From: Pseudooceanicola marinus
GTDB taxonomy: Bacteria; Pseudomonadota; Alphaproteobacteria; Rhodobacterales; Rhodobacteraceae
Reading direction: 5' to 3'
NCBI RefSeq assembly: GCF_002786295.1
Contig: NZ_PGTC01000009.1
Coordinates: 558,001 to 622,000 of the forward strand
Length of the DNA: 64,000 nt
Within the stretch, counting starts at the first letter, position 1, and each line of letters begins with the position of its first letter. Positions 3,580-56,483 of the stretch are shown piece after piece. The position numbers and the translations under genes were made by a program. The notes beneath the pieces are model-generated. The model was given only the letters and a program-made list of their open reading frames with translations. It had not been told where the DNA came from and ran no database searches.

Positions 3580-3630
3580 GGGGGCTCTGCCCCCGCCCGC
3601 GCCTGAAGGCGCGGACCCCCCGGAGTATTT
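3580..3630 (+). repeat. Two-hairpin intergenic element, copy A
   Basis: Hairpin 1 GGGGGC-TCT-GCCCCC (3580-3594), hairpin 2 CGCGCC-TGAA-GGCGCG (3598-3613), then GACCCCCCGGAGTATTT (3614-3630). It starts 9 nt after the pydC stop, inside the operon. The same layout recurs at 10406-10452, 28296-28336 and in weaker form at 54326-54371. Confidence 0.8.
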
Positions 3631-3681
3631 CCAGCTTTCGGATAAGGCTGGGGCGCCCGGGGCAATAACAGGGAGACTATC

Positions 3682-5142
3682 ATGATCAAGGTGATCAAGG
3701 GCGGCACCGTCGTGACCGCAGACCGTCAGTGGAAGGCCGATATCGCCATCGAGGGCGAGACCATCAAGGAAATCGGCGAGGACCTGAAGGGCGACGAGTA
3801 TATCGACGCCGAAGGCGCCTACGTCATTCCGGGCGGCATCGACCCGCACACCCACCTGGAAATGCCCTTCATGGGCACCACCGCCGCCGAAACCTTCGAG
3901 AGCGGCACCTGGGCGGCGGCCTGCGGCGGTACGACGATGCTGATCGACTTCTGCCTGCCGGGCTCGGACGGGTCGATCAAGAACGCGATCAACGAATGGC
4001 ACCGCAAGTCGGCGCCGCAGATCTGTTCCGACATCGGCTATCACATGGCCATCACCGGCTGGAACGAGCTGATCTTCGACGAGATGAAATATGCCGTGGA
4101 CAACGGCGTGAACTCCTTCAAGCATTTCATGGCCTACAAGGGCGCGCTGATGGTCGAGGACGACGAGATGTTCGCCTCCTTCTCGCGCTGCAAGGAGTTG
4201 GGCGCCATGCCCATGGTCCACGCCGAGAACGGCGACCTGGTCGACCTGATGCAGAAGAAATTCCTGGCCGAGGGCAAGACCGGGCCCGAGTGGCACGCCC
4301 GTTCGCGCCCCGCGGAGTTCGAGGGCGAGGCCGCCAACCGCGCGATCACCATCGCCGATGCCGCCGGCGTCCCCCTCTACATCGTGCACGTGTCCTGCGA
4401 ACAGGCGCATGAGGCCATCCGCCGCGCGCGCCAGAAGGGGATGCGCGTCTACGGCGAGCCGCTGGCGCAATTCCTGACGCTGGATGACGAGGAGTACCTC
4501 AGCAAGGACTGGCTGCATTCGGCGCAGCGCGTGATGTCGCCGCCCTTCCGGGGCAAGGAACACCAGGACGGTCTCTGGGCCGGCCTGCAGTCCGGCTCGC
4601 TTCAGGTCGTGGCGACGGACCACGCTGCCTTCTCCAGCGAGCAGAAGAAGATGGGGCTGGAGGATTTCACCAAGATCCCCAATGGCACCAACGGGCTGGA
4701 GGAACGCTTGGCCGTGCTCTGGACCTTCGGCGTTGAAACCGGTCGGCTGACGCCCGAGGAGTTTGTCGCCGTGACCTCCTCCAACATCGCCAAGATCCTG
4801 AACATCTACCCCAAGAAGGGCGCGCTGATGCCCGGGGCCGATGCGGATATCGTGGTCTGGGATCCGAAGATCTCGCGCACCATCTCGGCGTCGAACCACA
4901 AGTCGATCATCGACTACAACGTCTTCGAGGGCGTCGAGGTCAGCGCCCAGGCGCGCTATACCCTGTCGCGTGGCGAGGTCATCTGGGCCTGGGGCCAGAA
5001 CAGCCAGCCGCAGCCCGGTCGGGGCCGGTTCGTGCCGCGCCCGGCCTTCCCGAGCGCGCATACGGCGCTGTCCAAGTGGAAAGAGTTGAACAGCCCGCGT
5101 TCTGTCGAGCGTGATCCGCTGAACATTCCGGCCGGTATTTAA
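3682..5142 (+). CDS. pydB: Dihydropyrimidinase / D-hydantoinase
   Basis: A 486-residue cyclic amidohydrolase that opens 5,6-dihydrouracil or dihydrothymine to the N-carbamoyl-beta-amino acid used by PydC. The binuclear metal site is complete: His56 and His58 (DPHTHLE), the lysine to be carboxylated in FMAYKG (Lys153), His180 (MVHAEN), His236 (YIVHVS) and Asp313 (VATDHA). The length and the C-terminal beta-sandwich (GADADIVVWDP) are typical of dihydropyrimidinases. A GGGAG ribosome site precedes ATG 3682. The upstream dihydropyrimidine dehydrogenase genes (preT/preA) are not in this window. Confidence 0.93.
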   Translation: MIKVIKGGTVVTADRQWKADIAIEGETIKEIGEDLKGDEYIDAEGAYVIPGGIDPHTHLEMPFMGTTAAETFESGTWAAACGGTTMLIDFCLPGSDGSIKNAINEWHRKSAPQICSDIGYHMAITGWNELIFDEMKYAVDNGVNSFKHFMAYKGALMVEDDEMFASFSRCKELGAMPMVHAENGDLVDLMQKKFLAEGKTGPEWHARSRPAEFEGEAANRAITIADAAGVPLYIVHVSCEQAHEAIRRARQKGMRVYGEPLAQFLTLDDEEYLSKDWLHSAQRVMSPPFRGKEHQDGLWAGLQSGSLQVVATDHAAFSSEQKKMGLEDFTKIPNGTNGLEERLAVLWTFGVETGRLTPEEFVAVTSSNIAKILNIYPKKGALMPGADADIVVWDPKISRTISASNHKSIIDYNVFEGVEVSAQARYTLSRGEVIWAWGQNSQPQPGRGRFVPRPAFPSAHTALSKWKELNSPRSVERDPLNIPAGI

Positions 5143-5152
5143 GGACAGCTTC

Positions 5153-5935
5153 GTGACGCAAGTACCTGTAATTGAGGCAAAGCATCTCGATCTGACCTTT
5201 CAGACCAACGACGGGCCCGTGCAGGCCCTGCGCGATGTGACCCTGGAGATCTCCAAGGGGGATTTCGTCAGTTTCATCGGCCCGTCGGGCTGTGGCAAGA
5301 CCACCTTCCTGCGCTGCATCGCGGCGCTGGAAGAGCCCACGGGCGGCCAGCTGACGGTCAACGGGATGAGCCCCGAGGCGGCGCGGAAGGCCCGCGCCTA
5401 TGGCTATGTCTTCCAGGCGGCGGGGTTGTACCCTTGGCGCACCATCGCCGGCAACATCAAGCTGCCGCTGGAGATCATGGGCTTTTCGAAGACTGAGCAG
5501 GTCGAGCGCGTGGAAAAGGTGCTGGAACTGGTCGACCTGTCCGGCTTCGGCAAGAAATTCCCCTGGCAGCTGTCGGGGGGCATGCAGCAACGCGCTTCGA
5601 TCGCCCGGGCGCTGGCCTTCGATGCCGACATCCTGCTGATGGATGAACCCTTCGGCGCGCTGGACGAGATCGTGCGCGACCACCTCAACGAAGAGCTGCT
5701 GAAGCTCTGGGCACGCACCGAGAAGACCATCGGTTTCGTCACCCACTCGATCCCCGAGGCGGTCTACCTGTCGACCAAGATCGTGGTGATGTCGCCCCGT
5801 CCGGGCCGGATCACCGACGTGATCGAAAGCCCGCTGCCCAAGGAGCGCCCGCTGGATATCCGCGACACGCCGGAATTCCTGGAGATCGCGCATCGGGTGC
5901 GCGAAGGGCTGCGTGCGGGGCATGCCTATGACTGA
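5153..5935 (+). CDS. ABC transporter ATPase of a pyrimidine/HMP-type importer
   Basis: A 260-residue ATPase of the SsuB/TauB/ThiZ class: Walker A GPSGCGKTT, Q-loop VFQAAGLYPW, signature LSGGMQQR, Walker B ILLMDEPFGALDE, switch His in FVTHSIPEA. It starts at GTG 5153 after AAGGACAG, 10 nt behind pydB, and its stop overlaps the next gene. With the two permeases and the NMT1/THI5-like binding protein downstream it forms one importer. From the RutR and pyd genes around it I infer a pyrimidine or related base as substrate; the family also includes riboflavin, HMP and sulfonate carriers. Confidence 0.87.
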   Translation: MTQVPVIEAKHLDLTFQTNDGPVQALRDVTLEISKGDFVSFIGPSGCGKTTFLRCIAALEEPTGGQLTVNGMSPEAARKARAYGYVFQAAGLYPWRTIAGNIKLPLEIMGFSKTEQVERVEKVLELVDLSGFGKKFPWQLSGGMQQRASIARALAFDADILLMDEPFGALDEIVRDHLNEELLKLWARTEKTIGFVTHSIPEAVYLSTKIVVMSPRPGRITDVIESPLPKERPLDIRDTPEFLEIAHRVREGLRAGHAYD

Positions 5936-6365
5936 TGCCGCCCCCGAGATCCGCCGGGCGGAGCGGGCGGACATTCCCGCCTGCGCCGCCGTGGCCAGTG
6001 ACTGGATCCTAGAAACCGACTGGATGCCCGGCTTGCATTCCCGCGAGGAGCTGGAAGGCCATATCCGCGACGCCTTCGACACCCGCGAGATCTGGGTGAT
6101 CGGCGCGCCGGTGGCCGCCTACATGTCCGTCGATCCGGTGGCGGGCCATATCGGCGCGCTCTATTGCCGGACGCGCGGGCAGGGCTGGGGCAAGGCCTTT
6201 CTCGACCGGGCAAAGGAAGGCCGCGATCACCTGAGCCTGAACACCCATGCGCCCAACGAGGCCGCCCAGCGGTTCTACGCCCGCGAAGGCTTCGTCGAGG
6301 TCGGGCGCCGGATGCCCGTCCCGCCCGAGATCGTCAAGGAAGTACGGATGGAGTGGCGGCGATGA
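5928..6365 (+). CDS. GNAT-family N-acetyltransferase embedded in the pyrimidine operon
   Basis: A 145-residue GNAT-fold protein. The start (EIRRAERADIPACAAV) is the usual beta1-alpha1 motif, the acetyl-CoA loop is seen as YCRTRGQGWGKAFLDRA, and NEAAQRFYAREGFVEVGRR is the classic C-terminal motif B. The start at 5928 is used because GCGGGG at 5915-5920 is well placed; GTG 5913 and ATG 5922 are possible. It overlaps the ATPase stop by 8 nt and the permease start by 4 nt (ATGA), so it is translationally coupled on both sides. The substrate is unknown; an amine made in the pathway is only a guess. Confidence 0.85.
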   Translation: MTDAAPEIRRAERADIPACAAVASDWILETDWMPGLHSREELEGHIRDAFDTREIWVIGAPVAAYMSVDPVAGHIGALYCRTRGQGWGKAFLDRAKEGRDHLSLNTHAPNEAAQRFYAREGFVEVGRRMPVPPEIVKEVRMEWRR

Positions 6366-7279
6366 AACGGCTCGTCTTTCCCGTCGTCGTCGTGGTCGCC
6401 GCAATCCTGGCCTTCTGGTACGCGGCCTGCGTGCCGATGAACATCAAGTTTGCGCTTATGACCGCCGAACGCCAGGGCGCCGTGGTCAGCCCCGAGGGGA
6501 TGATCACGCGCCGCGACATGTCGCCCTTCGTGCTGGCCGCGAAGAACCCCGCGCAGTGGTCCGACACCTGGGTGCAGGACAAGCCGCGCCTGCCGGCCCC
6601 GCACCAGGTGGTGACCGAGCTCTGGGCGCAGACCATGCAGGTCGCGCCGACCTCGAAGCGCAGCCTGGTGTTCCACGGCTGGATCACCCTCTCGGCCACG
6701 CTCCTGGGTTTCGCCATCGGCTCCGGCCTGGGGGTGTTGCTGGCCGTGGGGATCGTGCACAGCCGCGCCATGGACATGTCGGTGATGCCCTGGGCCATCG
6801 CCAGCCAGACCATCCCGATCCTCGCCATCGCGCCGATGATCATCGTGGTCCTCAGCTCGATCGGTTTGCAGGGGCTGGTGCCCAAGGCCGTGATCTCGGC
6901 CTATCTGTCCTTCTTCCCGGTCGTCGTGGGCATGGTGAAGGGGCTGCGCAGCCCGTCGCCCATGGACCTTGACCTCGTGAAGACCTGGTCGGCGACCAAG
7001 GCACAGACCTTCTGGAAACTGCGCCTGCCGGCCTCGGCGCCCTATCTCTTCGCGTCGCTGAAGATCGGCGTGGCCTCCTCGCTCGTGGGGACCATCGTGG
7101 GCGAGCTGCCGTCGGGCACCGGCCAGGGTCTGGGCTTCCGCCTGCTGTCGGGCAGCTACTATGGCCAGACGGTGCAGATCTGGTCGGCGCTGTTTGCCAC
7201 GGCGATCCTGGCGGCCTGCCTGGTGGCGATCATCGGGCTGATGGAACGTGGCGTACTGAAACGGATGGGGCTGGGCTGA
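6362..7279 (+). CDS. ABC transporter permease 1 of the pyrimidine-linked importer
   Basis: A 305-residue BPD-type permease. An N-terminal helix (about 5-25) is followed by an unusually long hydrophilic stretch (about 30-100) before the five-helix core. The EAA loop is visible as TWSATKAQTFWKLRLPASAPYLF. It belongs to the SsuC/TauC/ThiX group and should pair with the permease at 7470. The start ATG overlaps the GNAT stop (ATGA). Confidence 0.87.
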   Translation: MKRLVFPVVVVVAAILAFWYAACVPMNIKFALMTAERQGAVVSPEGMITRRDMSPFVLAAKNPAQWSDTWVQDKPRLPAPHQVVTELWAQTMQVAPTSKRSLVFHGWITLSATLLGFAIGSGLGVLLAVGIVHSRAMDMSVMPWAIASQTIPILAIAPMIIVVLSSIGLQGLVPKAVISAYLSFFPVVVGMVKGLRSPSPMDLDLVKTWSATKAQTFWKLRLPASAPYLFASLKIGVASSLVGTIVGELPSGTGQGLGFRLLSGSYYGQTVQIWSALFATAILAACLVAIIGLMERGVLKRMGLG

Positions 7280-7473
7280 TGTTTGACTTCGTTCTGACAA
7301 ACAGAGGCCCGCGCCTGACCGCGGGCGGGGGCGAAGCGCCCGCCCATGGGGGCGGTCGGGCGCTGGCCGTGCCGCTGGCACGACCGGTCCGGGCTGCTTG
7401 CGCCGGTGCAGGTCAACAGGCCTGCGCAGGCCTGTTGACGGGGCGCGTTGCTCTTGGGGAGGGCTTCCAATGA
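7279..7473 (+). CDS. Small open frame between the two permease genes, doubtful coding
   Basis: A 64-codon frame. Its ATG overlaps the stop of permease 1 (TGATG) and its TGA overlaps the ATG of permease 2 (ATGA), the same coupling as its neighbours. The predicted protein is Ala/Gly/Arg-rich with no recognisable motif, and the DNA carries a 28-bp perfect palindrome at 7412-7439. It may be a true coupling peptide, the remains of an insertion between formerly adjacent permease genes, or a spacer that happens to be open. Confidence 0.35.
   Translation: MFDFVLTNRGPRLTAGGGEAPAHGGGRALAVPLARPVRAACAGAGQQACAGLLTGRVALGEGFQ
7412..7439. repeat. 28-bp perfect palindrome
   Basis: GTCAACAGGCCTGC (7412-7425) followed at once by its exact reverse complement (7426-7439). 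In RNA it would form a long hairpin about 30 nt before the second permease start; in DNA it could be a dimer-protein site. It has no T run and is not a normal terminator. Confidence 0.85.
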
Positions 7474-8312: not shown

Positions 8313-8356
8313 AAGGCGCATATAAAAACACGAAGACCAAACAGGGAGTTAAACTC

Positions 8357-9449: not shown

Positions 9450-10214
9450 ATGAAGGGGCGACGACAGGTGGCAAACGGGGCAGAGCGGCGATCACGGCCC
9501 GTGCAGGTGGCCGAGGCGATCAAGGACTACGTGGTCGAGGAAGGCCTGCGCATGGGCGACCGCCTGCCCGGAGAGGCAGAGTTGATCGCCCGCTTCGGCA
9601 TGTCGAAAGGCACCATCCGCGAGGCCATGCGCATCCTCGAAGCCCAGGGGCTGGTCAAGACGCGCACCGGGCCCGGCGGCGGCAGCTTCGTGCACGAGGT
9701 CAGCCGCGAACGCGCCCAGGCGCTTCTGGGCAACTACTTCTACTTCCGCGACCTGACCCTGAAGGACATCTACCAGATGCGCCGCTGGCTGGAGCCGGAG
9801 CTTGCGGCTTCGCTGGCCGGCAAGCTGACCGATGCGCAGCTGTCGCGGCTGGACGCGGTGGTGGAAACCTACGATCACCCGTCGTCGGACGTGGAGGAGG
9901 AGCGCGAACAGCACATCGCCTCGCTGCGCTTCCATCAGCTGCTGGCGGAGTTCGCGCGCAACGAGCTTCTGGGGTTCGTCATCGGGTTCATGGCGCAAAT
10001 CCTGTCGGACCTCACGATCTACCGCCGCCTCTACGAGCCGGCCAATCCCGAGCTCTGGGAGAAGGGCCGAGCCTACCAGCTGGAGCTGCTGGACGCCCTG
10101 CGCCGGGGCGATGCGGACCGCGCGCGTCTGGTCATGGCTGATCACATGGCGACAGCGGAACAGCTGATGGAGGGGCAGGAGGCGGAGATGCTGAAACGCT
10201 TCCTCACCGCCTGA
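9450..10214 (+). CDS. GntR-family transcriptional regulator, FadR/FCD subfamily
   Basis: A regulator of about 254 residues. The winged helix-turn-helix is clear (AEAIKDYVVEEGLRMGDRLP, GEAELIARFGMSKGTIREAM, then GLVKTRTGPGGGSFV). The all-helical FCD domain follows, with RRWLEPELAA, HIASLRFHQLLAEF and a late HMATAEQL that supplies effector- or metal-site histidines. ATG 9450 is preferred; ATG 9426 lies inside the operator-like motif at 9419-9434 and lacks a ribosome site, and GTG 9471 is another option. It probably controls the DUF1028 and peptide ABC genes next door, whose divergent promoter holds two copies of the same motif. Confidence 0.85.
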   Translation: MKGRRQVANGAERRSRPVQVAEAIKDYVVEEGLRMGDRLPGEAELIARFGMSKGTIREAMRILEAQGLVKTRTGPGGGSFVHEVSRERAQALLGNYFYFRDLTLKDIYQMRRWLEPELAASLAGKLTDAQLSRLDAVVETYDHPSSDVEEEREQHIASLRFHQLLAEFARNELLGFVIGFMAQILSDLTIYRRLYEPANPELWEKGRAYQLELLDALRRGDADRARLVMADHMATAEQLMEGQEAEMLKRFLTA

Positions 10215-10240: not shown

Positions 10241-10279
10241 TCGGCCCGTTCCGGGCCGAAGCCTCCGGCGGGAGTATTT
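10241..10279 (+). repeat. Two-hairpin intergenic element, copy B (short form)
   Basis: One hairpin TCGGCCCG-TTC-CGGGCCGA (10241-10259), then GCCTCCGGCGGGAGTATTT (10261-10279) and TCCGACAAGGTGAAGA. The first G5/C5 hairpin is absent. It starts 27 nt after the GntR stop and faces copy C. Confidence 0.75.
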
Positions 10280-10405
10280 CCGACAAGGTGAAGAGGCGGG
10301 ACCGCGCCTGATCTGCAACCCTCCCGCTGCCTCAGGCAGGTGCACGCGCGGGGGCCATCGCGGCGGGTGCCTCGCTCGTGCCCTCTCTCCTCTTCATCTC
10401 GTCTG

Positions 10406-10452
10406 AAATACTCCGGGGGAGTCTCCGGCACGGAGACGGGGGCGGAGCCCCC
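10406..10452 (-). repeat. Two-hairpin intergenic element, copy C
   Basis: Read on the minus strand: hairpin 1 GGGGGC-TCC-GCCCCC (10452-10438), hairpin 2 GTCTCCG-TGC-CGGAGAC (10437-10421), then CTCCCCCGGAGTATTT ending at 10406. It starts 16 nt after the DUF1028 stop and is an inverted partner of copy B 126 bp away. Confidence 0.8.
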
Positions 10453-10468: not shown

Positions 10469-11173
10469 TCACTCCGACCGGGGCGTCTCGTCCAGCCGGG
10501 CGAAGTCCGCCTCGGAGGGCGCGCGGAAGGGTGCCTCTTTGGTGGGCACCAGCCGCGCCCATTCGGCGTAGAGGCCTGTGGTGGCCCGATCGTGCAGCGC
10601 GCGCAGGTCGGCCAGGGGCGAATCGGAGGCGTCGATGCGCAGGCTCAGGGGGGCCATGTCCGGACCGAGGCACAGCAGTGCCGCCGACAGCAGTCCGCGG
10701 CTGTCCGATCCCGCGTCCTCGCCGGCCTGAAGCGCCGCCAGAAGCCGCTCGGGCATCGTCCCCGTGGCATTGGCATAGCCCTGGGCGACCGCATCGAGCA
10801 CCGCTTCGGAACTGAGCATGTTGCCCGCCACCACCAGGTTTTCGTCCCGCCGGCTGGCGCAGGCCGGCACCGAGTCCGCGCCGGTGAAGGCGCCGGAGTT
10901 TCCCAGCAGATCAAGGGCCGAAAGCTGTCGGTGGGCGCGCCCCTCGTCGGGGGCCGTCACCTCGGTCACGGCGGCAGGGGCCGGGGCGCCCGCCTGCATC
11001 TCGTCCAGCACCGCCTCGCCCCAGAGGGTCGAGGGCGCGGTGCCCTGGCTGGCGGACATGCCCGCCTCGACCCGGCCGCGCAGGACCCAGCCGCCCACGC
11101 AAAGCGATCCGGTGGCCGCCGCCCCGCCGATCCTGCCTGTTTCCGCGTCACGGACGAGTATGGAAAAGGTCAT
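10469..11173 (-). CDS. DUF1028 family protein (putative Ntn-hydrolase-like)
   Basis: A 234-residue member of DUF1028. The start MTFSILVRDAETGRIGGAAA, the GWVLRGRVEAGMSASQG block and GNMLSSEAVLDAVA are family hallmarks. DUF1028 has been suggested to have an Ntn-hydrolase-like fold, but no reaction is established. ATG 11173 has the strong ribosome site GGAGG; the frame continues upstream to 11239 through the operator region and is not used there. It is divergent from a peptide ABC operon, a pairing that points to a role in peptide or amide use. Confidence 0.83.
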   Translation of the reverse strand: MTFSILVRDAETGRIGGAAATGSLCVGGWVLRGRVEAGMSASQGTAPSTLWGEAVLDEMQAGAPAPAAVTEVTAPDEGRAHRQLSALDLLGNSGAFTGADSVPACASRRDENLVVAGNMLSSEAVLDAVAQGYANATGTMPERLLAALQAGEDAGSDSRGLLSAALLCLGPDMAPLSLRIDASDSPLADLRALHDRATTGLYAEWARLVPTKEAPFRAPSEADFARLDETPRSE

Positions 11174-11202
11174 GCTGCCTCCGGTCGTTTCTTGCCTCTT
11201 GA

Positions 11203-11218
11203 ATTTATCATGAGAATT
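11203..11218. promoter_or_regulatory. Operator-like motif, site 2
   Basis: ATTTATCATGAGAATT, in the divergent promoter between DUF1028 and the peptide ABC operon. It starts 28 bp before site 3. Confidence 0.6.
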
Positions 11219-11230
11219 TGGCTGAGTGCA

Positions 11231-11246
11231 ATTTATCATGATGAAT
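11231..11246. promoter_or_regulatory. Operator-like motif, site 3
   Basis: ATTTATCATGATGAAT, the most symmetric copy (one mismatch between half-sites). Spacing from site 2 is 28 bp, near three helical turns less a few bases, so two dimers could bind side by side. Confidence 0.6.
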
Positions 11247-16835: not shown

Positions 16836-16841
16836 CCCCCG

Positions 16842-24954: not shown

Positions 24955-27942
24955 TCAGTCCAGCGCGCTGTCGCAGCGCCCGCAGACGCCCGGGTGCGCA
25001 TGGGTGCCCACGTCCGGCAGGATCTTCCAGCAACGCTGACACTTCTCGCCCTCGGCCTTTTCGAAGACCACGGCGATGCCAGAAACCTCGGGCAGGCGGT
25101 AGGCCTCCTGTGGGGCGGGATCGGCCGACAGCTGCAGGTCCGAGGTGATGCAGATGTCGGCGAAGTTCACCGACTTCAGCGCCGCCAGCACATCTGCATC
25201 CTCGACATGGACGACCGGCGCGGCCTCCAGTGAGGCGCCGATCACCTTGTCAACCCGCTGCACCTCCAGCGCGGCGGTAACGACACGGCGCGCCTGGCGC
25301 ACGCGGGCCCACTTGGCGGCCAGCGCCGCGTCCTTCCAGGACGCCGGCGTCTCCGGGAAGTCCTGCAGGTGGACGGAGCTGTCCTCGCCGGGGAAGCGTT
25401 CCAGCCAGACCTCTTCCATGGTGAAGCACAGCACCGGCGCCAGCCAGGTGGTCAGACGGTGGAACAGGATGTCCAGCACGCTGCGCGTAGCCTTGGCCCG
25501 CAGGGTGTCGCCGTCGCAGTAGAGCGCATCCTTGCGGATGTCGAAGTAGAAGGACGACAGCTCTACCGTGGCGAAGTTGAACACCGCCTGGAAGACGCCC
25601 TGGAAGTCGAAGGCGCGGTAGCCCTGCTGCACGACCTCGTCCAGCTCTGCCAGGCGATGCAGGACCCAGCGTTCCAGCTCCGGCATGTCAGCGGGGGCCA
25701 CGCGGTCCTCCTCGCGGAAATCGCCAAGCGAGCCCAGGATGAAGCGCATGGTGTTGCGCAGACGGCGGTAGCTGTCAGCGGTGCCCTTCAGGATCGTGTC
25801 CCCGATCCGCTGGTCGGCCATGTAGTCGGTCTGGGCCACCCAGAGGCGCAGGATGTCCGCGCCGTACTGCTTGATGACGTCCTGCGGCGCGATGGTGTTG
25901 CCGAGCGACTTGGACATCTTGTTGCCCTTCTCGTCCAGCGTGAACCCATGGGTCACCACGTTGCGGTAGGGCGCGCGACCCAGGGTGCCGCAGGCCTCCA
26001 GCAGGGAAGAGTGGAACCAGCCGCGGTGCTGGTCGGTGCCTTCCATGTAGACGTCGGCAATGCCGTCCTCGGTGCCGTCGGGACGATCCCGCAGCACGAA
26101 GGCATGGGTGGAGCCACTGTCGAACCACACGTCGAGGATGTCATCGACCTTCTGCCATTCGGCCGGGTCGTAGTCATTGCCCAGGAACCGTTCCTTGGCG
26201 CCATCCTTGTACCAGGCATCGGCGCCCTCGGCCTCGAAGGCCTCGATGATGCGGGCGTTGACGGCCGGATCGCGCAGCAGGAAGTCGGGATCCGTCGGCA
26301 GGGCGCCCACCTTGGTGAAACAGGTCAGCGGCACACCCCAGGCCCGCTGGCGCGACAGCACCCAGTCGGGACGGCTTTCCATCATCGAATGCAGGCGGTT
26401 GCGGCCCGACTGCGGCGTGAACTTCACCAGCTCCTCGATGGATTTCAGCGCGCGTTCGCGGATCGTCTCGCCGTGCTGGTCCTGGCCGTCGTCGACCTTT
26501 CGGTCGATCGCGGCGAACCACTGCGAGGTGTTACGGAAGATCACCGGCGCCTTGGAACGCCAGGAATGCGGGTAGCTGTGCTTGATCTTGCCGCGCGCCA
26601 TCAGCCCACCCACCTCGGCGAGCTTGTCGATGACGGCCTTGTTGGCATCGCCCTCACCGCCCTTGCGGTTCAGGATGTACTTGCCCCCGAAGAAGGGCAG
26701 GTCGGCGCGCAAAGCGCCATCGTCCATCACGTTGTAGGTGATGACCTGGTCGAGCATGCCGAGATCACGGTAAAGCTCGTATTCCTCCATCCCGTGCGAG
26801 GGGGCGCAGTGGACGAAGCCGGTGCCTTCCTCGTCGGTGACAAAGGGCGCGGCGCGGAAATCGCGCGGCGCGTCCCATTCGCCGTTCGACCCTTCGGTAC
26901 CCGCCAGCGGGTGCGCCAGCGTCATCGCGGCCAGCTGATTGGCGCTGACGTCGCTGACGCGTTTCCACTGACCGTCTTCCAGGCGCGCCTTGGCGAAGGT
27001 CTGGGCGGCCAGCTTGTCTGCCAGGATGTATTTCTCGCCGACCTGCAGCCAGCATTCGTCCGGCGTCCCGGTGACCTCGTAGAGGCCGTAGTCAAAGTCG
27101 GCGCCGAAGACGACGGCCTTGTTCGACGGGACGGTCCAGGGCGTCGTGGTCCAGATCACCACATGGGCGCCCAGGAACTTCTCCCGCGCGGCCTGGGCCG
27201 CCTCGACGACTGCCTGGCGGGCCTCGGCGCTTTCTTCCTCGTCCGAGCTCTCGCCGGCCCCGGGGGCGAAATCGGCGACCTTGAACTTCACCCAGATGGT
27301 GAAGCTTTCCTTGTCATGGTATTCCACTTCGGCCTCGGCCAGGGCGGTCTTTTCCACCGGCGACCACATCACGGGCTTCGAGCCCTGATAGAGCGTGCCG
27401 TTCATCAGGAACTTCATGAATTCCTCGGCGATGACGCGCTCGGCGTGGAAGTTCATGGTCAGGTAGGGATCATCCCAGTTGCCGGTGATGCCGAGGCGCT
27501 TGAACTCCTCGCGCTGCACGTCCACCCAGCCTTCGGCGAACTTGCGGCATTCCTGGCGGAAGTCGACCACGTCGACCTCATCCTTGTTGCGGCCCTTCTT
27601 GCGATACTGCTCCTCGATCTTCCACTCGATCGGCAGGCCGTGGCAGTCCCAGCCGGGCACGTAACGCGCGTCATGACCCATCATCTGGTGCGACCGTACG
27701 ATCATGTCCTTGATCGTCTTGTTCAGGGCGTGACCGATGTGCAGGTGGCCGTTGGCATAGGGGGGGCCGTCATGCAGGGTGAAGGGTGTCCGCCCCTCCT
27801 TCTCGCGCAGGCGGTCGTAGATGCCGATCTTTTCCCAGCGGTCCAGCCAGCCGGGCTCGCGCTTGGGCAGGCCCGCGCGCATGGGGAAATCGGTTTTCGG
27901 AAGGTTCAGCGTGTCTTTGTAGTCAGGCGTCTCGGCGCACAT
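24955..27942 (-). CDS. ileS: Isoleucyl-tRNA synthetase
   Basis: A 995-residue class I synthetase that charges tRNA-Ile. The HIGH motif is in YANGHLHIGHALNK (near residue 63) and the KMSKS loop in KGNKMSKSLGN. The CP1 editing domain is present (VIWTTTPWTVPSNKAVVF, with GTGFVHCAPSHG). A C-terminal Zn finger is intact (CQRCW ... CGRC). A short acidic insert rich in Ser and Glu lies at about residues 226-245, before the editing core. It stands alone on the minus strand, and its upstream region contains two repeat elements. Confidence 0.97.
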   Translation of the reverse strand: MCAETPDYKDTLNLPKTDFPMRAGLPKREPGWLDRWEKIGIYDRLREKEGRTPFTLHDGPPYANGHLHIGHALNKTIKDMIVRSHQMMGHDARYVPGWDCHGLPIEWKIEEQYRKKGRNKDEVDVVDFRQECRKFAEGWVDVQREEFKRLGITGNWDDPYLTMNFHAERVIAEEFMKFLMNGTLYQGSKPVMWSPVEKTALAEAEVEYHDKESFTIWVKFKVADFAPGAGESSDEEESAEARQAVVEAAQAAREKFLGAHVVIWTTTPWTVPSNKAVVFGADFDYGLYEVTGTPDECWLQVGEKYILADKLAAQTFAKARLEDGQWKRVSDVSANQLAAMTLAHPLAGTEGSNGEWDAPRDFRAAPFVTDEEGTGFVHCAPSHGMEEYELYRDLGMLDQVITYNVMDDGALRADLPFFGGKYILNRKGGEGDANKAVIDKLAEVGGLMARGKIKHSYPHSWRSKAPVIFRNTSQWFAAIDRKVDDGQDQHGETIRERALKSIEELVKFTPQSGRNRLHSMMESRPDWVLSRQRAWGVPLTCFTKVGALPTDPDFLLRDPAVNARIIEAFEAEGADAWYKDGAKERFLGNDYDPAEWQKVDDILDVWFDSGSTHAFVLRDRPDGTEDGIADVYMEGTDQHRGWFHSSLLEACGTLGRAPYRNVVTHGFTLDEKGNKMSKSLGNTIAPQDVIKQYGADILRLWVAQTDYMADQRIGDTILKGTADSYRRLRNTMRFILGSLGDFREEDRVAPADMPELERWVLHRLAELDEVVQQGYRAFDFQGVFQAVFNFATVELSSFYFDIRKDALYCDGDTLRAKATRSVLDILFHRLTTWLAPVLCFTMEEVWLERFPGEDSSVHLQDFPETPASWKDAALAAKWARVRQARRVVTAALEVQRVDKVIGASLEAAPVVHVEDADVLAALKSVNFADICITSDLQLSADPAPQEAYRLPEVSGIAVVFEKAEGEKCQRCWKILPDVGTHAHPGVCGRCDSALD

Positions 27943-28150
27943 GGTCGTGATCCGTTTCAGGAAGTCGCAATGTCTGTGAAAGGTCGGCGCGGTATCCCAT
28001 ACGCCTTGTCCCGGCGGCTCGAGTTCAGAGCGCCGGGCATGTAATTCGAATGATGATGGCGAAGGCTCGGGTCATCATGGGGGATGCATACACGCGGGGC
28101 GGGCGGGCGTCCAGAGGATCGGGGGCCTGTGCCTGCGGCAGGTGTCGGAT

Positions 28151-28169
28151 GCCTCCGGCGGGAGTATTT
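28151..28169 (+). repeat. Two-hairpin intergenic element, copy D (short form)
   Basis: GCCTCCGGCGGGAGTATTT, identical over 19 bp to copy B at 10261-10279, followed by TGGACGACGTGAAGA. A small hairpin (GCCTGCGGCAGG region, 28131-28142) precedes it. Confidence 0.75.
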
Positions 28170-28295
28170 TGGACGACGTGAAGACAGGGGGCTGCCCCCG
28201 GGTTGCCCGACTTTCGAGGACGGGGGCGTGGCACGCTCCTCATGGCGAAAGGAGGCCGACTTTCCGGGCACTGTCCCGCCTCTTCACGTCGTCGG

Positions 28296-28336
28296 AAATA
28301 CTCCGGGGGGCGCCGAAGGCGGGGGGCGGCGCCCCC
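28296..28336 (-). repeat. Two-hairpin intergenic element, copy E
   Basis: On the minus strand: hairpin 1 GGGGGC-GCC-GCCCCC (28336-28322), hairpin 2 CGCC-TTC-GGCG (28321-28311), then CCCCCCGGAGTATTT ending at 28296, then CCGACGACGTGAAGA. It starts 9 nt after the ycjF stop. Confidence 0.8.
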
Positions 28337-28345: not shown

Positions 28346-29398
28346 TCAGTCCGCGCCACCCTCGGTCTTCTCTGCCTTGGCGAAAAGGCCGGTCAGCGCA
28401 GTCTGGATGATCGAGGTAACCCGCGGGCGGCGCCCGTCGGAGAAGGGCATGGGGCGGCAGACTTCCATCGCCGCGAGGCCGACGCGGGCCGTCAGCGCCC
28501 CGTTGACCACCCCTTCGCCGAAGCGGCGCGACAGGCGCGCCAGCAGGTTGCCGCCCAGCACGGAGCCCAGCATGTCGTCGCCCATGGCCACGGCGCCGGT
28601 GGCCACCAGGTGGGTCATCACCGCGCGCAGCAGGCGCCAGGACCCCAGCGTGCCCGAGCGGCCGCCGTAGATTTCCGCGATGCGGCGGATCATGCGGATA
28701 TTGGCGCCAAGGGCCGTGGCGACATCCGCCAGGGCCAAGGGCACCAGGGCGGTCACCGTGGCCACCTGCCGCGCGGCGGCTTCCACCTCGGCGCGGGCCG
28801 CGCGGTCCAGGGGCGTCAGCAGCTCACCTTCCGCCAGGTCCAGCAGGGAGGCGGCGTCGAACTGGTCGGGCTGGCGTTCGTCGAACCGCTCCACCTGCCA
28901 GCGCATCTCGGGCCGGCCCCGGTAGAGTTTCGTCAGCTGCCGTGTGGCCTCACGGGCCTGGGCCAGCTCGTCCGAGGCGCGGGCGTCGGCCATCACCTTG
29001 TGCAGCCGGTCCATGCGCGCCAGCCGGGCAAATGCCGTCAGCTCCTTCACCACGATGGCCAGCAGCACCGCCAGGAAGGCGCCGATCAGCACTGTCACCG
29101 CCCAGCCCAGCCAGGGGGTGGAGGCAATCAGCGCCGTCACCGCGTTCCAGGCCGCGGTGGAGATCGCCACCGTCAGCAGCGCCCCGGCCAGGGCCCAGAA
29201 CCAGCGCGCCAGCCGCGAGGGTTTGCGCGCCATCAGCCGCGCGGTCCGCGCCAGCCGGGCATCGGCGGCGGGCAGGGAGGTGTCGGGCACCGGGGGCGCC
29301 ATGTCGGGGCGGGCGGCGGGGCCGTCGACCTCGATCAGGACGGGACCGGCTTGCTTGCCTGCGGCGGGACGGGCGGTGTCGTCGGAGCGGTCGGTCAT
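28346..29398 (-). CDS. ycjF: YcjF-family membrane protein (UPF0283/TIGR01620)
   Basis: A 350-residue inner-membrane protein. A disordered N-terminal part (1-70) is followed by two transmembrane helices (about 70-118, WFWALAGALLTVAISTAAW and VTVLIGAFLAVLLAIVV). The C-terminal domain with AAARQVATVTALVPLALADV and NIRMIRRIAEIYGGRSG is the TIGR01620 core. The family partners with YcjX and is linked to envelope or heat stress, without a known reaction. The start overlaps the GNAT stop by 4 nt (ATGA), which places it as third gene of ycjX-GNAT-ycjF. Confidence 0.85.
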   Translation of the reverse strand: MTDRSDDTARPAAGKQAGPVLIEVDGPAARPDMAPPVPDTSLPAADARLARTARLMARKPSRLARWFWALAGALLTVAISTAAWNAVTALIASTPWLGWAVTVLIGAFLAVLLAIVVKELTAFARLARMDRLHKVMADARASDELAQAREATRQLTKLYRGRPEMRWQVERFDERQPDQFDAASLLDLAEGELLTPLDRAARAEVEAAARQVATVTALVPLALADVATALGANIRMIRRIAEIYGGRSGTLGSWRLLRAVMTHLVATGAVAMGDDMLGSVLGGNLLARLSRRFGEGVVNGALTARVGLAAMEVCRPMPFSDGRRPRVTSIIQTALTGLFAKAEKTEGGAD

Positions 29399-50785: not shown

Positions 50786-50817
50786 GCATGCCCGTGAAGG
50801 GTTCGGCGCCGAACAGC

Positions 50818-50852: not shown

Positions 50853-50875
50853 GACAGGGAAAAACTGGGGTCGGA

Positions 50876-50944: not shown

Positions 50945-51047
50945 GGGGCATCTCCTTCGGCTGCGGCATGTAAACCATGTCTGTTGCATTGTTAACGACG
51001 GAAGGGGGCAGATGGTTCCCGCAGGCTCAGGCGTTTTGAGCGGGGGA

Positions 51048-51698: not shown

Positions 51699-51803
51699 GG
51701 CCTAGCATGTGGCCCGGCGCCCTGCCGGATCAAGTCACGATGCCGGCAGGGCGCCCGTGATGCCGCGGCGAACACCCCTGTCGCCTTGGGTCCGAGATGC
51801 AAG

Positions 51804-51826
51804 AAAGGCGCCCGGTGGGCGCCTTT
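51804..51826 (-). terminator. Terminator of pyrG
   Basis: AAAGGCGCCC / GGGCGCCTTT with loop GGT; on the minus strand TTTCTTG follows. It lies 26 nt after the pyrG stop. Confidence 0.8.
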
Positions 51827-51852
51827 CAGTCCTCTGCGGCTCTGGATCCGGG

Positions 51853-53496
51853 TCAGACCAGGCGGCTGACCTCCTTCGCGGCGCGCACGAAGTCCGCGAA
51901 CAGCGGGTGCGGGGCGAAGGGCTTCGATTTCAGCTCGGGGTGGAACTGCACGCCGATGAACCAGGGGTGGTCCTTGATCTCGACGATCTCGGGCAGGCGG
52001 CCGTCGGGGGACATGCCGGAGAACGACAGGCCGCATTCCTCCAGCTTGTCCTTGTACTTGATGTCCACCTCGTAGCGGTGGCGATGGCGTTCCTCGATCT
52101 CGGTGGCGTGGTAGACCTCCGACACCTTCGATCCTTCGGCCAGGGCGGCGGTATAGGCGCCCAGGCGCATGGTGCCGCCCTTGTCGTCGCCCACGGCGCG
52201 TTTCACGGCGTGGTTGCCCTTCACCCATTCCTTCAGGTGGTAGACCACCGGCTCGAACCGTTTCTTGCCGGCCTCGTGGTCGAATTCCTCGGACCCTGCG
52301 GTCTCGATATGGGCCAGGTTGCGGGCCGCTTCGATCACCGCCATCTGCATGCCGAGGCAGATGCCCAGGTAGGGGATCTTGCGGGTCCGGGCGAACTCCG
52401 CCGCCTTGATCTTCCCTTCGGTGCCGCGTTCGCCGAAGCCGCCGGGCACCAGGATCGCGTGGAAGCCTTCGAGGTGGGGCGCGGCGTCTTCATGGTCGAA
52501 GATCTCCGCATCGACCCATTCGACGTTGACCTTGATCCGGTTGGCCATGCCGCCGTGCACCAGGGCTTCCTTGATCGACTTGTAGGCGTCTTCCAGCTGC
52601 GTGTACTTGCCGACGATGGCGATCTTCACCGCGCCGTCGGTGTTGTGGATGCGGTCGTAGACATCCTGCCAGACAGTCAGGTCGGGTTTCGGCGCGGGGG
52701 AGATCTGGAAGGCATCCAGGACGGCCTGGTCCAGCCCCTCGCGGTGGTAGGCCAGCGGGGCCTCGTAGATGGACCCCAGGTCGTAGGCCGGCACCACCGC
52801 TTCCTTGCGCACGTTGCAGAAGAGCGCGATCTTCTCGCGTTCCTTCTCCGGGATCGGCTGTTCGGACCGGCAGACCAGGATGTCGGGCGCGATGCCGATC
52901 GACTGCAGCTCCTTCACCGAGTGCTGGGTTGGCTTGGTCTTCAGCTCTCCGCTCGCCGCCAGATAGGGCAGCAGTGTCAGGTGCATGAAGATGCACTGGC
53001 CGCGTGGCAGATCGTGGGAGAACTGGCGGATCGCCTCGAAGAAGGGCAGGCCCTCGATGTCGCCGACGGTGCCGCCGATCTCGCAGAGCATGAAATCGAC
53101 CTCATCCTCGCCGACGTGGAGGAAGTCCTTGATCTCGTTGGTGACGTGGGGGACGACCTGGATGGTCTTGCCCAGGTAGTCGCCGCGGCGCTCCTTCTCC
53201 AGCACGTCGGAATAGATGCGGCCCGAAGAGACACTGTCGGTGTTGCGGGCGGCGACGCCGGTGAACCGTTCGTAGTGACCCAGGTCCAGGTCGGTTTCCG
53301 CGCCGTCGTCGGTGACGAAGACCTCGCCGTGTTCAAAGGGCGACATGGTGCCGGGATCGACGTTCAGGTAGGGATCCAGCTTGCGCAGCCGGACGGAGAA
53401 GCCGCGGGCCTGCAGCAGGGCGCCGAGCGCAGCAGAGGCAAGGCCCTTGCCCAGGGACGAAACGACGCCGCCGGTGATGAAGATGTATCTCGCCAT
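51853..53496 (-). CDS. pyrG: CTP synthase
   Basis: A 547-residue CTP synthase. The synthetase half starts [20 protein letters not shown] with the ATP loop; [20 protein letters not shown] and [12 protein letters not shown] follow. The amidotransferase half has [13 protein letters not shown] (Cys), and the His/Glu pair in [12 protein letters not shown]. It makes CTP from UTP with glutamine. The start at 53496 is the conserved MARYIF; the frame remains open to 53667 through the leader, without a ribosome site. The leader contains a UUCG-capped hairpin. Confidence 0.97.
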
Positions 53497-53560
53497 GTCT
53501 TGAGGCTCCCGTGAAGTGTCGGCGTGCGGACGCGACTTTGGCTGCGCAAAATAAGGACAG

Positions 53561-53578
53561 AGCGGTCCGAAGACCGCT
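53561..53578 (-). other. UUCG-capped hairpin in the pyrG leader
   Basis: On the minus strand AGCGGTC-TTCG-GACCGCT, a 7-bp stem with the very stable UUCG loop, 65 nt before the pyrG start. CTGTCCTTATTTT follows, so it could be a secG-side terminator or a leader structure. Confidence 0.6.
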
Positions 53579-53741
53579 GTTCCACGGGATTTAAGAGCTA
53601 CCAGATTCGCATGGCACTGGCAACAGGATCCCGCAAGATGCTGGGTTTGGCAGGAGGCGTCCCGCAAGGTGTAGTGGTTGAGAGGGGGCAGTTTCCCGAC
53701 GGGCGCCGAAGCGCCCGCTCAGGGCCGGTGCCCGGCCGGTC

Positions 53742-54110
53742 TCAGTCGGCCGAAGGCGTCAGTCCGTCGGTGCCCGACGCGCCCGAGGGCGGCGGCAGCA
53801 GGCCGCCCGCATCCGGGGTCTCGGCGCCGTCTGCGCCCTCTTCGACCGGGGCAGGCGCGGTGCCCAGCCGGTCGAGGACAGAAGATCCGGAGGAGCGTTC
53901 GGCAGCCACGATGGTCAGCGCCAGCGAGGTGACGATGAAGGCCGTGGCCAGCACCCAGGTCAGCTTGCCCATGGCGGTTGCCGCGGCCCGGCCGGTCATC
54001 GCCCCGCCGCCGCCCATGCCGAGGCCACCGCCTTCGGAACGTTGCAGCAGCACCACGCCGATCAGCGCAAGCGCGAGGATCAGGTGGACGATGAGGACGA
54101 CGTTTTCCAT
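53742..54110 (-). CDS. secG: Protein translocase subunit SecG
   Basis: A 122-residue SecG. Two transmembrane helices (ENVVLIVHLILALALIGVVL and KLTWVLATAFIVTSLALTIV) flank the conserved LLQRSEGGGLGMGGGGAM loop. The tail is long, Pro/Gly-rich and acidic. It assists SecYE in protein export. ATG 54110 is used. It lies upstream of pyrG on the same strand, with 245 nt and several hairpins (53561-53738) between. Confidence 0.92.
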   Translation of the reverse strand: MENVVLIVHLILALALIGVVLLQRSEGGGLGMGGGGAMTGRAAATAMGKLTWVLATAFIVTSLALTIVAAERSSGSSVLDRLGTAPAPVEEGADGAETPDAGGLLPPPSGASGTDGLTPSAD

Positions 54111-54456
54111 GTACAAAGCCCGTTTCGGTCGCGGGCGCCGGGCGCCCCTGGATCAGTATGCGGCATATCGCGGACGGCCCCGGGGAGCCATCATTCGGCG
54201 GGTATCTAAGCCAGACAGGCCTGCACCGCAACCCCGAATGGCGCGGGCCGTGTCGCGGCGCGCGGGCTGTGTCGGGCAGGGTGCGGCGGCCCTGTCCCTC
54301 GGGCGCGATCGGGAGAAGGGGGCAAGGGGCTCAACCCCGCCGGGCTGCGTGCGACTCCCCCCGGGATATTTCTGGCAGGGAAGAGGGGGCAGGGCGCGAT
54401 GTTGCTGCCAGGGCGAATTGGGAACGGCGCGTGTCGCTGAAAGGAACAGTCGCCGG
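54111..54456. other. Gap between DUF6524-like gene and secG
   Basis: No gene is supported. It holds the repeat copy F at 54326-54371 and the secG promoter, which I cannot place. I compared it with tRNA-Leu, which often neighbours secG elsewhere, and found no tRNA. Confidence 0.5.
54326..54371 (+). repeat. Two-hairpin intergenic element, copy F (degenerate)
   Basis: Hairpin 1 GGGG-CTCAA-CCCC (54326-54338), an imperfect middle part, then CTCCCCCCGGGATATTT (54355-54371), where ATATTT replaces AGTATTT. TCTGGCAGGGAAGAGG follows as in other copies. Confidence 0.6.
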
Positions 54457-54858
54457 TCAGCTGTCGTCGTCAATGTCGTCCATGTCGACCTGCCCCGACA
54501 GGCGGCGGCGGATCAGGCTCCAGGACAGGCCGATGCCCAGCACCAGCGAAAGCGAGATGATGCCGAGCCACAGCAGGGAATTGCGGTTGGTCAGCCCCAG
54601 CAGGCCGAAATCCGACAGCACCCAGATCAGCGCCGCGGCGATCGCCAGCACCAGCCCCATGCCGAAGACCCCGATCGAGCGCAGGGTGGCGCGCAGGTAG
54701 ATCACGTAGCCCACGAACAGAAGCAGCCCCAGAAGCACGGTGACCGACATCAGGTCGGGCCAGTTCTGCATGACCCAGGTGACGTAATTGTACTCGGTCG
54801 GGTTGTAGGTGGCGGCGACCAGGAAAAAGGCCACGACCCAGCGAAGGAAGAATCCCAT
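54457..54858 (-). CDS. DUF6524-like membrane protein
   Basis: A 133-residue inner-membrane protein with four helices ([79 protein letters not shown]). The NPTEYNY motif after helix 1 and the acidic tail MDDIDDD fit the DUF6524-type family of Rhodobacterales. No function is known. ATG 54858 has AAGGGGA upstream. Confidence 0.75.
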
Positions 54859-55130
54859 CAATGTCCCCTTTGAAACGGATCTTTCGAATGTCCGCCCGCC
54901 GGCGGATCGGTCTTTCGGAAATTGGCGTCGGTTTGCCCGTTTCGGCCCCTTGTGTCCAGCGTCCCGCGCCGCGGCGATGCGTCCCGGCGCGGGAAAGGCG
55001 GCCTTTCGGTTTCCGTGCGCCACAGATTCGGGTTTCGTCCGCGTCGCCCGGACGCTATACCGGCGCGGGTTTGGGCCGCGCGATCTGCGTCGCGCGCCCG
55101 GTCACATTGCCAAGTCGGAAAGGACCTGAG

Positions 55131-56426
55131 ATGGCCAATGTCGTCGTTGTCGGCGCCCAGTGGGGTGACGAGGGAAAAGGCAAGATCGTGGACTGGCTGA
55201 GCGAGCGCGCCGATGTCATCGCGCGCTTCCAGGGCGGCCATAACGCCGGCCATACGCTCGTCATCGATGGCGAGGTCTACAAGCTGAACGCGCTGCCCTC
55301 GGGCGTGGTGCGCGGCGGCAAGCTCAGCGTCATCGGCAACGGCGTGGTACTGGATCCCTGGCACCTGGTCGGCGAGATCGCCAAGATCCGCGAGCAGGGC
55401 GTGCAGATCAATCCCGAGACGCTGATGATCGCGGAGAACACCCCGCTGATCCTGCCGTTCCACGGCGAGCTGGACCGCGCCCGCGAGGAGGCTTCCTCCA
55501 AGGGGACCAAGATCGGCACCACCGGTCGCGGCATCGGGCCGTGCTATGAGGACAAGGTGGGCCGCCGCGCCATCCGCGTCGCCGATCTGGCAGACCGCGC
55601 CACGCTGGAGGCCCGCGTCGATCGCGCGCTGACCCACCATAACGCGCTGCGCGCGGGCCTGGGGCTGGAGGCGATCGACCGCGACGCGATCATCGCCCAA
55701 CTGGAAGAGATCGCCCCCGAGATCCTGCAATACGCCGCCCCGGTCTGGAAGGTCCTGACCGAGAAGCGCAAGGCGGGCAAGCGCATCCTCTTCGAGGGCG
55801 CGCAAGGCTCTCTGCTGGACATCGACTTTGGCACCTATCCCTTCGTCACGTCGTCGAACGTCATCGCGGGCCAGGCGGCCACCGGTGTGGGCATCGGTCC
55901 GGGATCCATCGACTTCGTGCTGGGTATCGTGAAGGCCTACACCACCCGCGTCGGCGAGGGGCCCTTCCCGACCGAGCTGGAAGACGAGACCGGCCAGCGT
56001 CTGGGCGAGCGGGGCCATGAATTCGGCACCGTCACGGGCCGCAAGCGCCGCTGTGGCTGGTTTGACGCCGCCCTGGTGAAGCAGACCTGCGCGGTGTCGG
56101 GCGTCAACGGCATCGCCCTGACCAAGCTCGACGTGCTGGATGGCTTCGAGACGCTGAAGATCTGCGTCGGCTACGAACTGGACGGCAAGCGCATGGATTA
56201 CCTGCCGACCGCCAGCGACGAGCAGGCCCGCTGCACCCCCGTCTACGAGGAGATGCCGGGTTGGAGCGAGTCGACGGAAGGCGCCCGCAGCTGGGCCGAC
56301 CTGCCGGCGAACGCGATCAAGTACGTGCGCCGGGTGGAAGAGCTGATCGAATGCCCGGTGGCATTGCTGTCGACCTCGCCGGAACGCGACGACACCATCC
56401 TGGTGACGGATCCCTTCGCGGATTGA
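55131..56426 (+). CDS. purA: Adenylosuccinate synthetase
   Basis: A 431-residue PurA that joins IMP and aspartate with GTP in AMP synthesis. [14 protein letters not shown] is the GTP loop with the catalytic Asp; GGHNAGHT holds the catalytic His; [14 protein letters not shown] and [20 protein letters not shown] are IMP-site blocks. GGAAAGGA before ATG 55131 sets the start. It lies alone on the plus strand; two small genes follow. Confidence 0.97.
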
Positions 56427-56435
56427 TGAGCGGCA

Positions 56436-56483
56436 GGGGGCTCTGCCCCCGCCGCGCCATGGGGCGCGTCTGCGGAATGCAGA
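56436..56483 (+). repeat. Two-hairpin intergenic element, partial copy G
   Basis: Hairpin 1 GGGGGC-TCT-GCCCCC (56436-56450), identical to copy A, then CGCGCC-ATGG-GGCGCG (56453-56468) and a third hairpin TCTGC-GGAAT-GCAGA (56469-56483). The CCGGAGTATTT end is missing. It starts 9 nt after purA. Confidence 0.7.

Follow-up and report, generated by a model that had tools for sequence, protein, structure and literature searches.

A dispersed, hairpin-bearing repeat of Rhodobacterales with a possible two-way role at transcript boundaries

A 64,000-nucleotide stretch of the Pseudooceanicola marinus genome (RefSeq assembly GCF_002786295.1, contig NZ_PGTC01000009.1, positions 558,001 to 622,000; hereafter, the window) contains several copies of a structured repeat that is dispersed through the Rhodobacterales and that occupies gaps 3′ of genes, with its highest density between convergent genes. 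In behavior, the repeat is like the repetitive extragenic palindromes (REPs) and bacterial interspersed mosaic elements (BIMEs), and we tentatively favor, at somewhat less than even confidence, the reading that host selection keeps it as a two-way transcript-boundary element. Its structure, spread, and location, its near-even orientation between co-directional genes, the smaller amount of change in its stems than in its loops, and the homology between its copies were computed directly. If the element ends or protects transcripts, the annotation of gene ends in Rhodobacterales would change. It also lends itself to testing how an RNA-like structure can spread while apparently under constraint and in the absence of the usual REP transposase.

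In its C-form, the element consists of a first hairpin (hp1), GGGGGC-NNN-GCCCCC, a second hairpin (hp2) whose sequence is free and whose pairing is kept, a GGRRTATTT core, and a tail. An earlier reading of the window from its letters alone (the sequence-only reading) had proposed such a dispersed element from seven sites and suggested a covariance model as a check. The three full copies, A (3580, plus strand), C (10406, minus strand), and E (28296, minus strand), do have exact CCCCCGGAGTATTT ends and the arms described. A covariance model, R1, which covers hp1 and hp2 as well as a third, smaller hairpin, was built from 19 copies of one length class from this genome, with copy C in the training set and copies A and E out of it. 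Applied to the window, R1 returned the seven proposed sites as its seven best matches (80.5, 58.5, 52.5, 29.5, 21.2, 20.3, and 19.3 bits; E values of 1e-22 to 4e-4), followed by an eighth of 17.7 bits that is the opposite strand of copy E.

Across the 1.664 of 4.497 Mb of this genome that were analyzed, the later stretches of which were picked to contain copies, 79 cores are C-rich, 38 belong to a second end-form, the T-form (CCTCCGGCGGGAGTATTT), and 26 match neither form and were excluded from the analysis. hp1 is present at 62 of the 79 C-rich cores, and among these 62 there are 48 distinct hp2 sequences; upon folding against 100 shuffles, 51 of the 62 equal or beat all but five. The best predicted fold of copy E is one long hairpin in place of the two first proposed, and most folded examples have a third, small hairpin (YUCC with GGRR) abutting TATTT. 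Among eight folded examples, this third hairpin is predicted clearly in five and weakly in copy A, and none is predicted in copy E or in the copy at 54326. Its predicted stem measures 3 to 5 bp, and the strong hp2 ends ~10 nt upstream of UAUUU.

Sites 10241 and 28151 had been taken for weak or shortened copies; they are members of the family, but in the distinct T-form, on the strand opposite to copies C and E, with which they make up two facing composites having 126 nt between cores in each. There are 24 facing pairs in the analyzed sequence, with inner lengths of 48 to 51 (seven pairs), 64 to 67 (five), and 126 to 129 nt (six) and six others, giving recurring spacings near 50, 66, and 126 nt. 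By reading, 21 of the 24 join a C-form to a T-form, one is C with C, one T with T, and one unclear; likewise by reading, the two inner arms agree in type in 23 of 24 pairs, the type varying from pair to pair.

The pairing of hp2 is supported by covariation, as had been anticipated. Among the copies of this genome, 20 double-changed cells were found against 5.3 expected, and neither this number nor the covariation score of 0.196 was reached by any of 500 shuffles. Across 20 other genera, 34 matches have double changes in 10 of 16 pairs (seven in hp2 and three in hp1), which again, as with the covariation score and the number of double-changed cells, no shuffle of 500 reached; this alignment had been fitted to R1, and relatedness among sequences can by itself give values above those of shuffles. 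A whole stem has also been replaced: at the locus between the DUF1028 and GntR genes, hp2 is GTCTCCG/CGGAGAC in P. marinus and its sister species (genome G691), and the orthologous position in L166 (compared with L164) has another fully pairing stem, TTGAGCCC/GGGCTCAA, which L167 carries with one mismatch.

The element is both abundant in this genome and widespread in the order. The 14-mer CCCCCGGAGTATTT has 84 matches at no more than one mismatch (57 exact), versus 1 for the reversed pattern, and the T-form CCTCCGGCGGGAGTATTT has 35 versus 0. R1 finds matches in 140 of 149 Rhodobacterales genomes and in 68 of 73 genera; counted by hand, there are at least 20 matches in 84 genomes, 10 to 19 in 26, 1 to 9 in 30, and none in 9, so that 110 of the 149 carry at least 10. 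The sister genome G691 has 123. T-form variants, with one mismatch allowed, occur in 255 of 295 genomes of the family, often in tens, versus 0 to 3 per genome for the control, and the element is also found on Paracoccus, Ruegeria, and Pseudooceanicola replicons. Neither an absence of further copies nor an absence of hp2 covariation was thus observed. Among other alphaproteobacteria, 5 of 40 genomes have single, weak R1 matches (E values of 0.0014 to 0.007). CCCCGGAGTATTT is present in more than one copy only in this genome and G331 (among 385 genomes of the class, five of them of the window's family). Within a named genome collection, matches to a strict 29-nt pattern with one tail type were confined to six stretches of Pseudooceanicola marinus SY-2-17. 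An origin in phages was rejected, two strict patterns having recovered only two viral contigs.

The distribution of copies relative to genes was assessed with gene calls from a codon-hexamer script and scripted terminator predictions, no annotation being used. C- and T-forms in a called gap number 53 between convergent, 52 between co-directional, and 6 between divergent genes, at densities of 1.22, 0.48, and 0.10 per kb, respectively (chi-square p = 7e-14), and GAGTATTT stands at 49 of 412 convergent gene ends versus 0 for its reversed control. These counts support the position behind genes that was first noted for copies A, C, and E. The distances of these three copies from the stop codon, given as 9 to 16 nt, are 8, 16, and 9 nt; sense C-forms as a whole begin 5 to 923 nt past the stop, and 18 of 42 begin no more than 15 nt past it.

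That copies follow the sense of the gene does not hold as a rule. In co-directional gaps of this genome, 30 copies are sense and 22 antisense (p = 0.33), and of 31 matches from the 20 other genera (31 of the 34, the three weakest excluded), 10 are co-directional and sense, 8 co-directional and antisense, 10 convergent, and 2 divergent, with 1 inside a called gene. A Pfam match supports the called strand in 18 of 20 genes that flank antisense or divergent copies. Transfer RNA genes were considered as hidden sense partners of antisense copies and rejected: ARAGORN placed three tRNA genes in 22 scanned loci, none of them, by reading of positions, on the needed strand.

These counts bear on the possibility that the repeat is a one-way element of the 3′ untranslated region, along the lines of the RNA processing or 3′-end stability element suggested in the sequence-only reading. 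Such an element would work in the sense orientation only, by intrinsic termination or as a site of RNase E processing and 3′ protection. The frequent start of sense C-forms within 15 nt of the stop would suit such an element, as would the small hairpin directly before UAUUU in most folded examples and the AU-rich RUAUUU of the core beside the stems. Its RUAUU fits the RNase E consensus, RN|WUU. The RNase E of R. sphaeroides, according to PMC6238624, prefers AU-rich sites, on which ground cutting by RNase E at RUAUU beside the hairpins is possible. Against a one-way element stand the antisense copies (22 of 52 in co-directional gaps here, 8 of 18 in other genera), the Pfam support for the strands of their neighbors, and the presence of facing composites in co-directional and divergent gaps as well; given the near-even orientation, we regard a purely one-way element as improbable.

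Once hits on the element itself are removed, a separate predicted U-tract terminator is found at 6 of 77 gene ends with the element versus 175 of 894 others (p = 0.009), and this partial exclusion, together with the convergent enrichment, argues for a boundary role. In co-directional gaps of this genome, moreover, sense copies lie farther from the next start than U-tract terminators do (rank test p = 8e-5). Two further candidates were discarded. Two independent terminators between convergent genes would leave unexplained the recurring spacings, the C/T polarity, and the facing pairs at co-directional and divergent sites, and intra-operonic stabilization as the main role conflicts with the longer gaps downstream of sense copies in this genome, with one counterexample (L134, described below).

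Copies at different sites are homologous over long stretches. In the best 60 of 1764 copy-to-copy alignments, composites from unrelated sites reach a likeness of 74 to 85% over 126 to 227 nt (C10:33580 and window 10406, for example, 80% over 215 nt, with homology from near hp1 to the T-side hairpin); in the same best 60, three half-elements from different sites with unlike flanks are 95 to 99% alike over 77 to 86 nt, the closest half-elements reaching 98.7% over 78 nt, again with unlike flanks. The suggestion that the repeat is a nonautonomous mobile element is borne out to the extent that homologous whole units stand at unrelated sites; the REP mobilizer is missing, however, and the stems look constrained.

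Conservation was gauged against the sister species, which is 94.4% identical over aligned blocks. An orthologous gap was available in the sister stretches for 63 of 122 elements; judged by pattern, 49 of the 63 keep an intact core, and by alignment 59 of the 63 copies are still present, four halves being absent through indels. In the reverse comparison, 42 of 45 cores are intact. These retention figures are inflated, because the G691 stretches were picked around G691 copies. Among these indels is one of 132 nt that affects a whole composite, in which what look like remnants of the T-side persist in the sister; this makes a deletion likelier than a gain, and no clear target-site duplication is present at this single whole-unit indel. 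The copy at 54326 is missing from the sister as a 64-nt gap.

Within retained copies, identity to the sister is 99.0% in hp1 stems and in the C-run and 96.6% in the core, values that are flattered because these parts served as selection criteria in this genome. For hp2, whose sequence was no selection criterion and whose stem positions were taken from the fold in P. marinus, identity is 96.6% in stems and 84.5% in loops, compared with 94.8% in coding and 89.8% in other intergenic DNA. The remaining parts are at 94.7% (T-side mini-hairpin), 90.6% (tail arm), and 87.1% (hp1 loops), and the lowest value, 82.2%, belongs to the two bases after the core. hp2 stems are better kept than hp2 loops (p = 4e-5) and than other intergenic DNA (p = 5e-7), and from this comparison the element looks to be partly kept by selection.

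These data weigh on a second alternative, that the repeat is a selfish or neutral palindrome, comparable to miniature inverted-repeat transposable elements (MITEs) or REP doublets forming hairpins (REPINs), with no host role and found behind genes since insertion elsewhere harms. The likeness of composites and half-elements at unrelated sites with unlike flanks is what such a repeat would leave, as are the C/T polarity of 21 of 24 pairs with their recurring spacings, the near-even orientation, and the lineage-typical arms described next; 7 of 11 changed hp2 pairs, furthermore, are broken in the sister. A purely selfish repeat is made less likely by hp2 stems that change less than their loops and less than intergenic DNA elsewhere. 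Further points against it are the retention of 59 of 63 copies (49 of 63 by core pattern, and inflated by the choice of stretches) and the Y1 transposase, which just two of 41 genomes have, one marginally. On balance, we consider this alternative rather unlikely.

Two loci compared across congeners illustrate how composites change. Between DUF697 and ileS, 5 of 22 congeneric genomes (P. marinus included) have the complete composite in the orthologous position, and in three of the four other congeners both inner arms jointly differ from those of P. marinus; in the remaining congeners, by reading, there is a C-form by itself, a T-form by itself, a reversed form, or no element. One arm type is common to this locus and the DUF1028/GntR locus within P. 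marinus and its sister and, similarly, within G677 and G690. A lineage-typical arm type at two loci suggests that conversion or replacement has changed the arms in concert; matched arms could alternatively arise by intramolecular correction of palindromes.

A third alternative places the function in DNA, as a site for a nucleoid protein, gyrase, or recombination, with the hairpins acting as DNA palindromes and the 3′ location merely tolerated. Near-even orientation would be natural for such a site, as would the arms, whose type agrees inside a pair (by reading, in 23 of 24) and varies from one pair to the next, and the hp2 mismatches, which have no strand bias. Two asymmetries lean to RNA without being decisive: read on the element's own strand in the 20-genera set, the outer pair of the third hairpin is U-G in 12 of 32 cells, and hp1 has 6 G-T mismatches versus 1 A-C (p = 0.125). 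We give a DNA-level site little credence.

The two-way boundary reading has difficulties of its own. A 3- to 5-bp hairpin with hp2 ~10 nt from UAUUU makes no textbook terminator. Before hits on the element itself were removed, 25 of 77 ends had a terminator and no exclusion was visible, because the TATTT of the element also triggers the detector; for gaps under 60 nt, the difference between 2 of 29 sense copies and 25 of 104 terminators is not significant (p = 0.065), and the gap-length effect is absent from the 20-genera set (p = 0.44). Copies at L041 and L113 adjoin a canonical-looking terminator, and the copy at L134 (10001-10061, genome G759) sits in a likely operon, between an iscR/Rrf2-like open reading frame (ORF) and an iscS-like ORF, the latter 8 nt from the core (names from reading translations). 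As to conservation and structure, hp2 stems do not differ significantly from coding DNA (p = 0.11); of 11 ungapped changed hp2 pairs between the sisters, 4 still pair and 7 are broken, with 195 unchanged; two of the five covariation measures are unremarkable in the copies of this genome (pairs with a double change, 125 of 500 shuffles; pair types, 194 of 500); and the third hairpin has zero double changes in either set. The counts of G-T versus A-C mismatches, which could separate action on RNA from action on DNA, are 1 versus 2 in hp2 and 2 versus 4 in the T-side hairpin, beside the counts for hp1 above, and do not decide between the two.

Under the boundary reading, which we still tentatively prefer, action on RNA, the ending or protection of transcripts, and renewal by copying or conversion are what we infer. 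A C-form read in its own direction would yield RNA with the tandem hairpins hp1 and hp2, often the small YUCC/GGRR hairpin, and then directly UAUUU and the tail. Between convergent genes, the C-form and T-form halves can face each other, such that the transcript of each strand would meet its own hairpins and U-rich stop. A sense copy between co-directional genes would end or protect the RNA of the upstream gene, and an antisense copy would block antisense RNA from the next promoter; copying or conversion may renew the copies. A bolder extension, which we find doubtful, would see an order-wide, partly self-renewing set of two-way boundaries (more than 100 copies in some genomes) read by a trans-acting factor that recognizes GGRRTATTT plus tail; the factor would change with the lineage, tails being replaced in step while the hairpins keep mainly their pairing.

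The copies in the window differ in completeness. Copy A (3580-3645, plus strand) is a single C-form half-element with hp1 at 3580-3594, hp2 within 3597-3614, a C-run to 3621, the core GGAGTATTT at 3622-3630, and the tail at 3631-3645; it is sense to an M20 peptidase gene whose stop is at 3571. Copy C (10391-10452, minus strand), with hp1, the hp2 given above, a core at 10406-10414, and a tail, is the C-form half of composite 1 and lies 3′ of a DUF1028 gene (10469-11239). The T-form half of this composite (10241-10294, plus strand), 3′ of a GntR-type gene (9501-10214), has the hairpin TCGGCCCG/CGGGCCGA, CCTCCGGCGGGAGTATTT at 10262-10279, and a tail; the 126-nt inner part (10280-10405, no strand) comprises a center and two imperfect inverted arms (GACNANRTGAAGAGG). 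Composite 2 combines copy E (28281-28336, minus strand; short hp2 GCC/GGC, core 28296-28304, tail), 3′ of a DUF697 gene (28346-29398), with a T-form half (28121-28184, plus strand; CCTCCGGCGGGAGTATTT at 28152-28169) that is antisense to DUF697 and ileS; its inner 126 nt (28170-28295, no strand) have arms GACGACGTGAAGA/TCTTCACGTCGTC and a center. A degenerate single C-form (54326-54384, plus strand; core GGGATATTT at 54363-54371) is antisense to DUF6524 (54457-54858), its tail pointing towards the DUF6524 stop, 85 nt from the core end. The last site, a partial copy (56436-56486, plus strand) behind purA (54861-56426), has hp1 and more hairpin-like sequence, but the GGRRTATTT core is absent.

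Tails and composite centers show some regularities. After TATTT, tails are purine-rich in the 31 matches from 20 other genera. By reading, core and tail types tend to associate among the C-forms of this genome, GGGATATTT often with GGCCAACAAATGG and GGAGTATTT with GGCCAACGTATGG or another tail. At L129, the copies at 10001 and 13599, separated by 3.6 kb of a single genome, have the unusual tail GGCACAAAGGCAA in common, which hints that tail types can be specific to a genome. In the G759 copy at L134, the tail holds the ATG of the iscS-like ORF, directly behind the TAG of the iscR/Rrf2-like ORF. By reading, a center like GGTACAGGTGGAGACCNNATGACCG is common to some long composites across genera (L091 at ~2644, L122 at ~9919, and C16 of this genome at ~89730-89901), of which a pattern search recovered two of three. 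Beside composite 2, a short ORF, MMTRAFAIIIRITCPAL (28025-28078, minus strand), upstream of ileS (24955-27942, minus strand), contains a series of Ile codons, and by reading its end lies within an inverted repeat; similar ORFs occur at 18 of 25 DUF697 loci under a loose pattern (among them L097, without the Ile run). It looks like a putative attenuation leader peptide for isoleucyl-tRNA synthetase.

No named family fitting the element turned up, and the sequence-only reading had known of none. Rfam 15 gave 0 matches at gathering score in the window, and on the two composites its matches are all far below the families' gathering scores. No description of the element was recognized among the matches listed in open-access literature, with subscription papers and supplements outside the scope of the search; matches listed for GGAGTATTT are unrelated by title. 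Like intrinsic terminators, the element places GC-rich hairpins before a U-rich stretch at the ends of genes, and separate canonical terminators are rarer where it is present, but its strong hairpin is ~10 nt from that stretch, a conserved TATTT replaces the plain U run, a tail follows, and orientation in co-directional gaps is near even. Repeats like the enterobacterial repetitive intergenic consensus (ERIC) and MITEs are likewise imperfect intergenic palindromes of 100 to 250 nt that are dispersed in genomes. Here, the two ends of a composite differ, one being a C-form and the other a T-form, and half-elements also occur alone. As regards the terminal inverted repeats of MITEs, the inverted arms of this element are internal and its outer ends unlike.

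Systems of REPINs and their REP-associated tyrosine transposases (RAYTs) are similar in that facing inverted pairs apparently disperse as a unit. An autonomous partner was sought only as the Y1 transposase, PF01797, of which there is none in this genome (controls positive in 5 of 14, E. coli included); among 41 Rhodobacteraceae genomes it was found in the two mentioned above, so that mobilization by RAYT is unsupported. The "low-copy" group in that comparison was picked by T-form pattern, and G603 and G631 within it have at least 36 C-form matches; no correlation with copy number is claimed.

REPs and BIMEs are among the nearest known systems. BIMEs are inverted pairs of unlike REP types. The definition of a REP includes a GTAG or CGTC tag that stays unpaired beside the palindrome, at one of its ends (PMC3733652), and REPs are credited with mRNA stabilization and termination and, at 15 nt or less from a stop, with ribosome stalling (PMC3733652, PMC12306157); the main text of these two papers names neither Rhodobacter nor Paracoccus. 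Beside the stems of our element, readings of the copies from this genome and the 20 genera revealed no constant GTAG or CGTC, and the constant sequence there, by reading of alignments, is CCCCCGGRRTATTT. The element further differs in its tandem hairpins with a GGRRTATTT core, in its nearly fixed hp1 and free hp2, and in its spread across an order. It lacks two defining features, tag and RAYT, yet it is REP/BIME-like in behavior: a short, palindromic, extragenic, high-copy repeat, some copies of which lie close behind stops, and which forms inverted pairs of unlike end types (21 C with T among the 24 facing pairs here).

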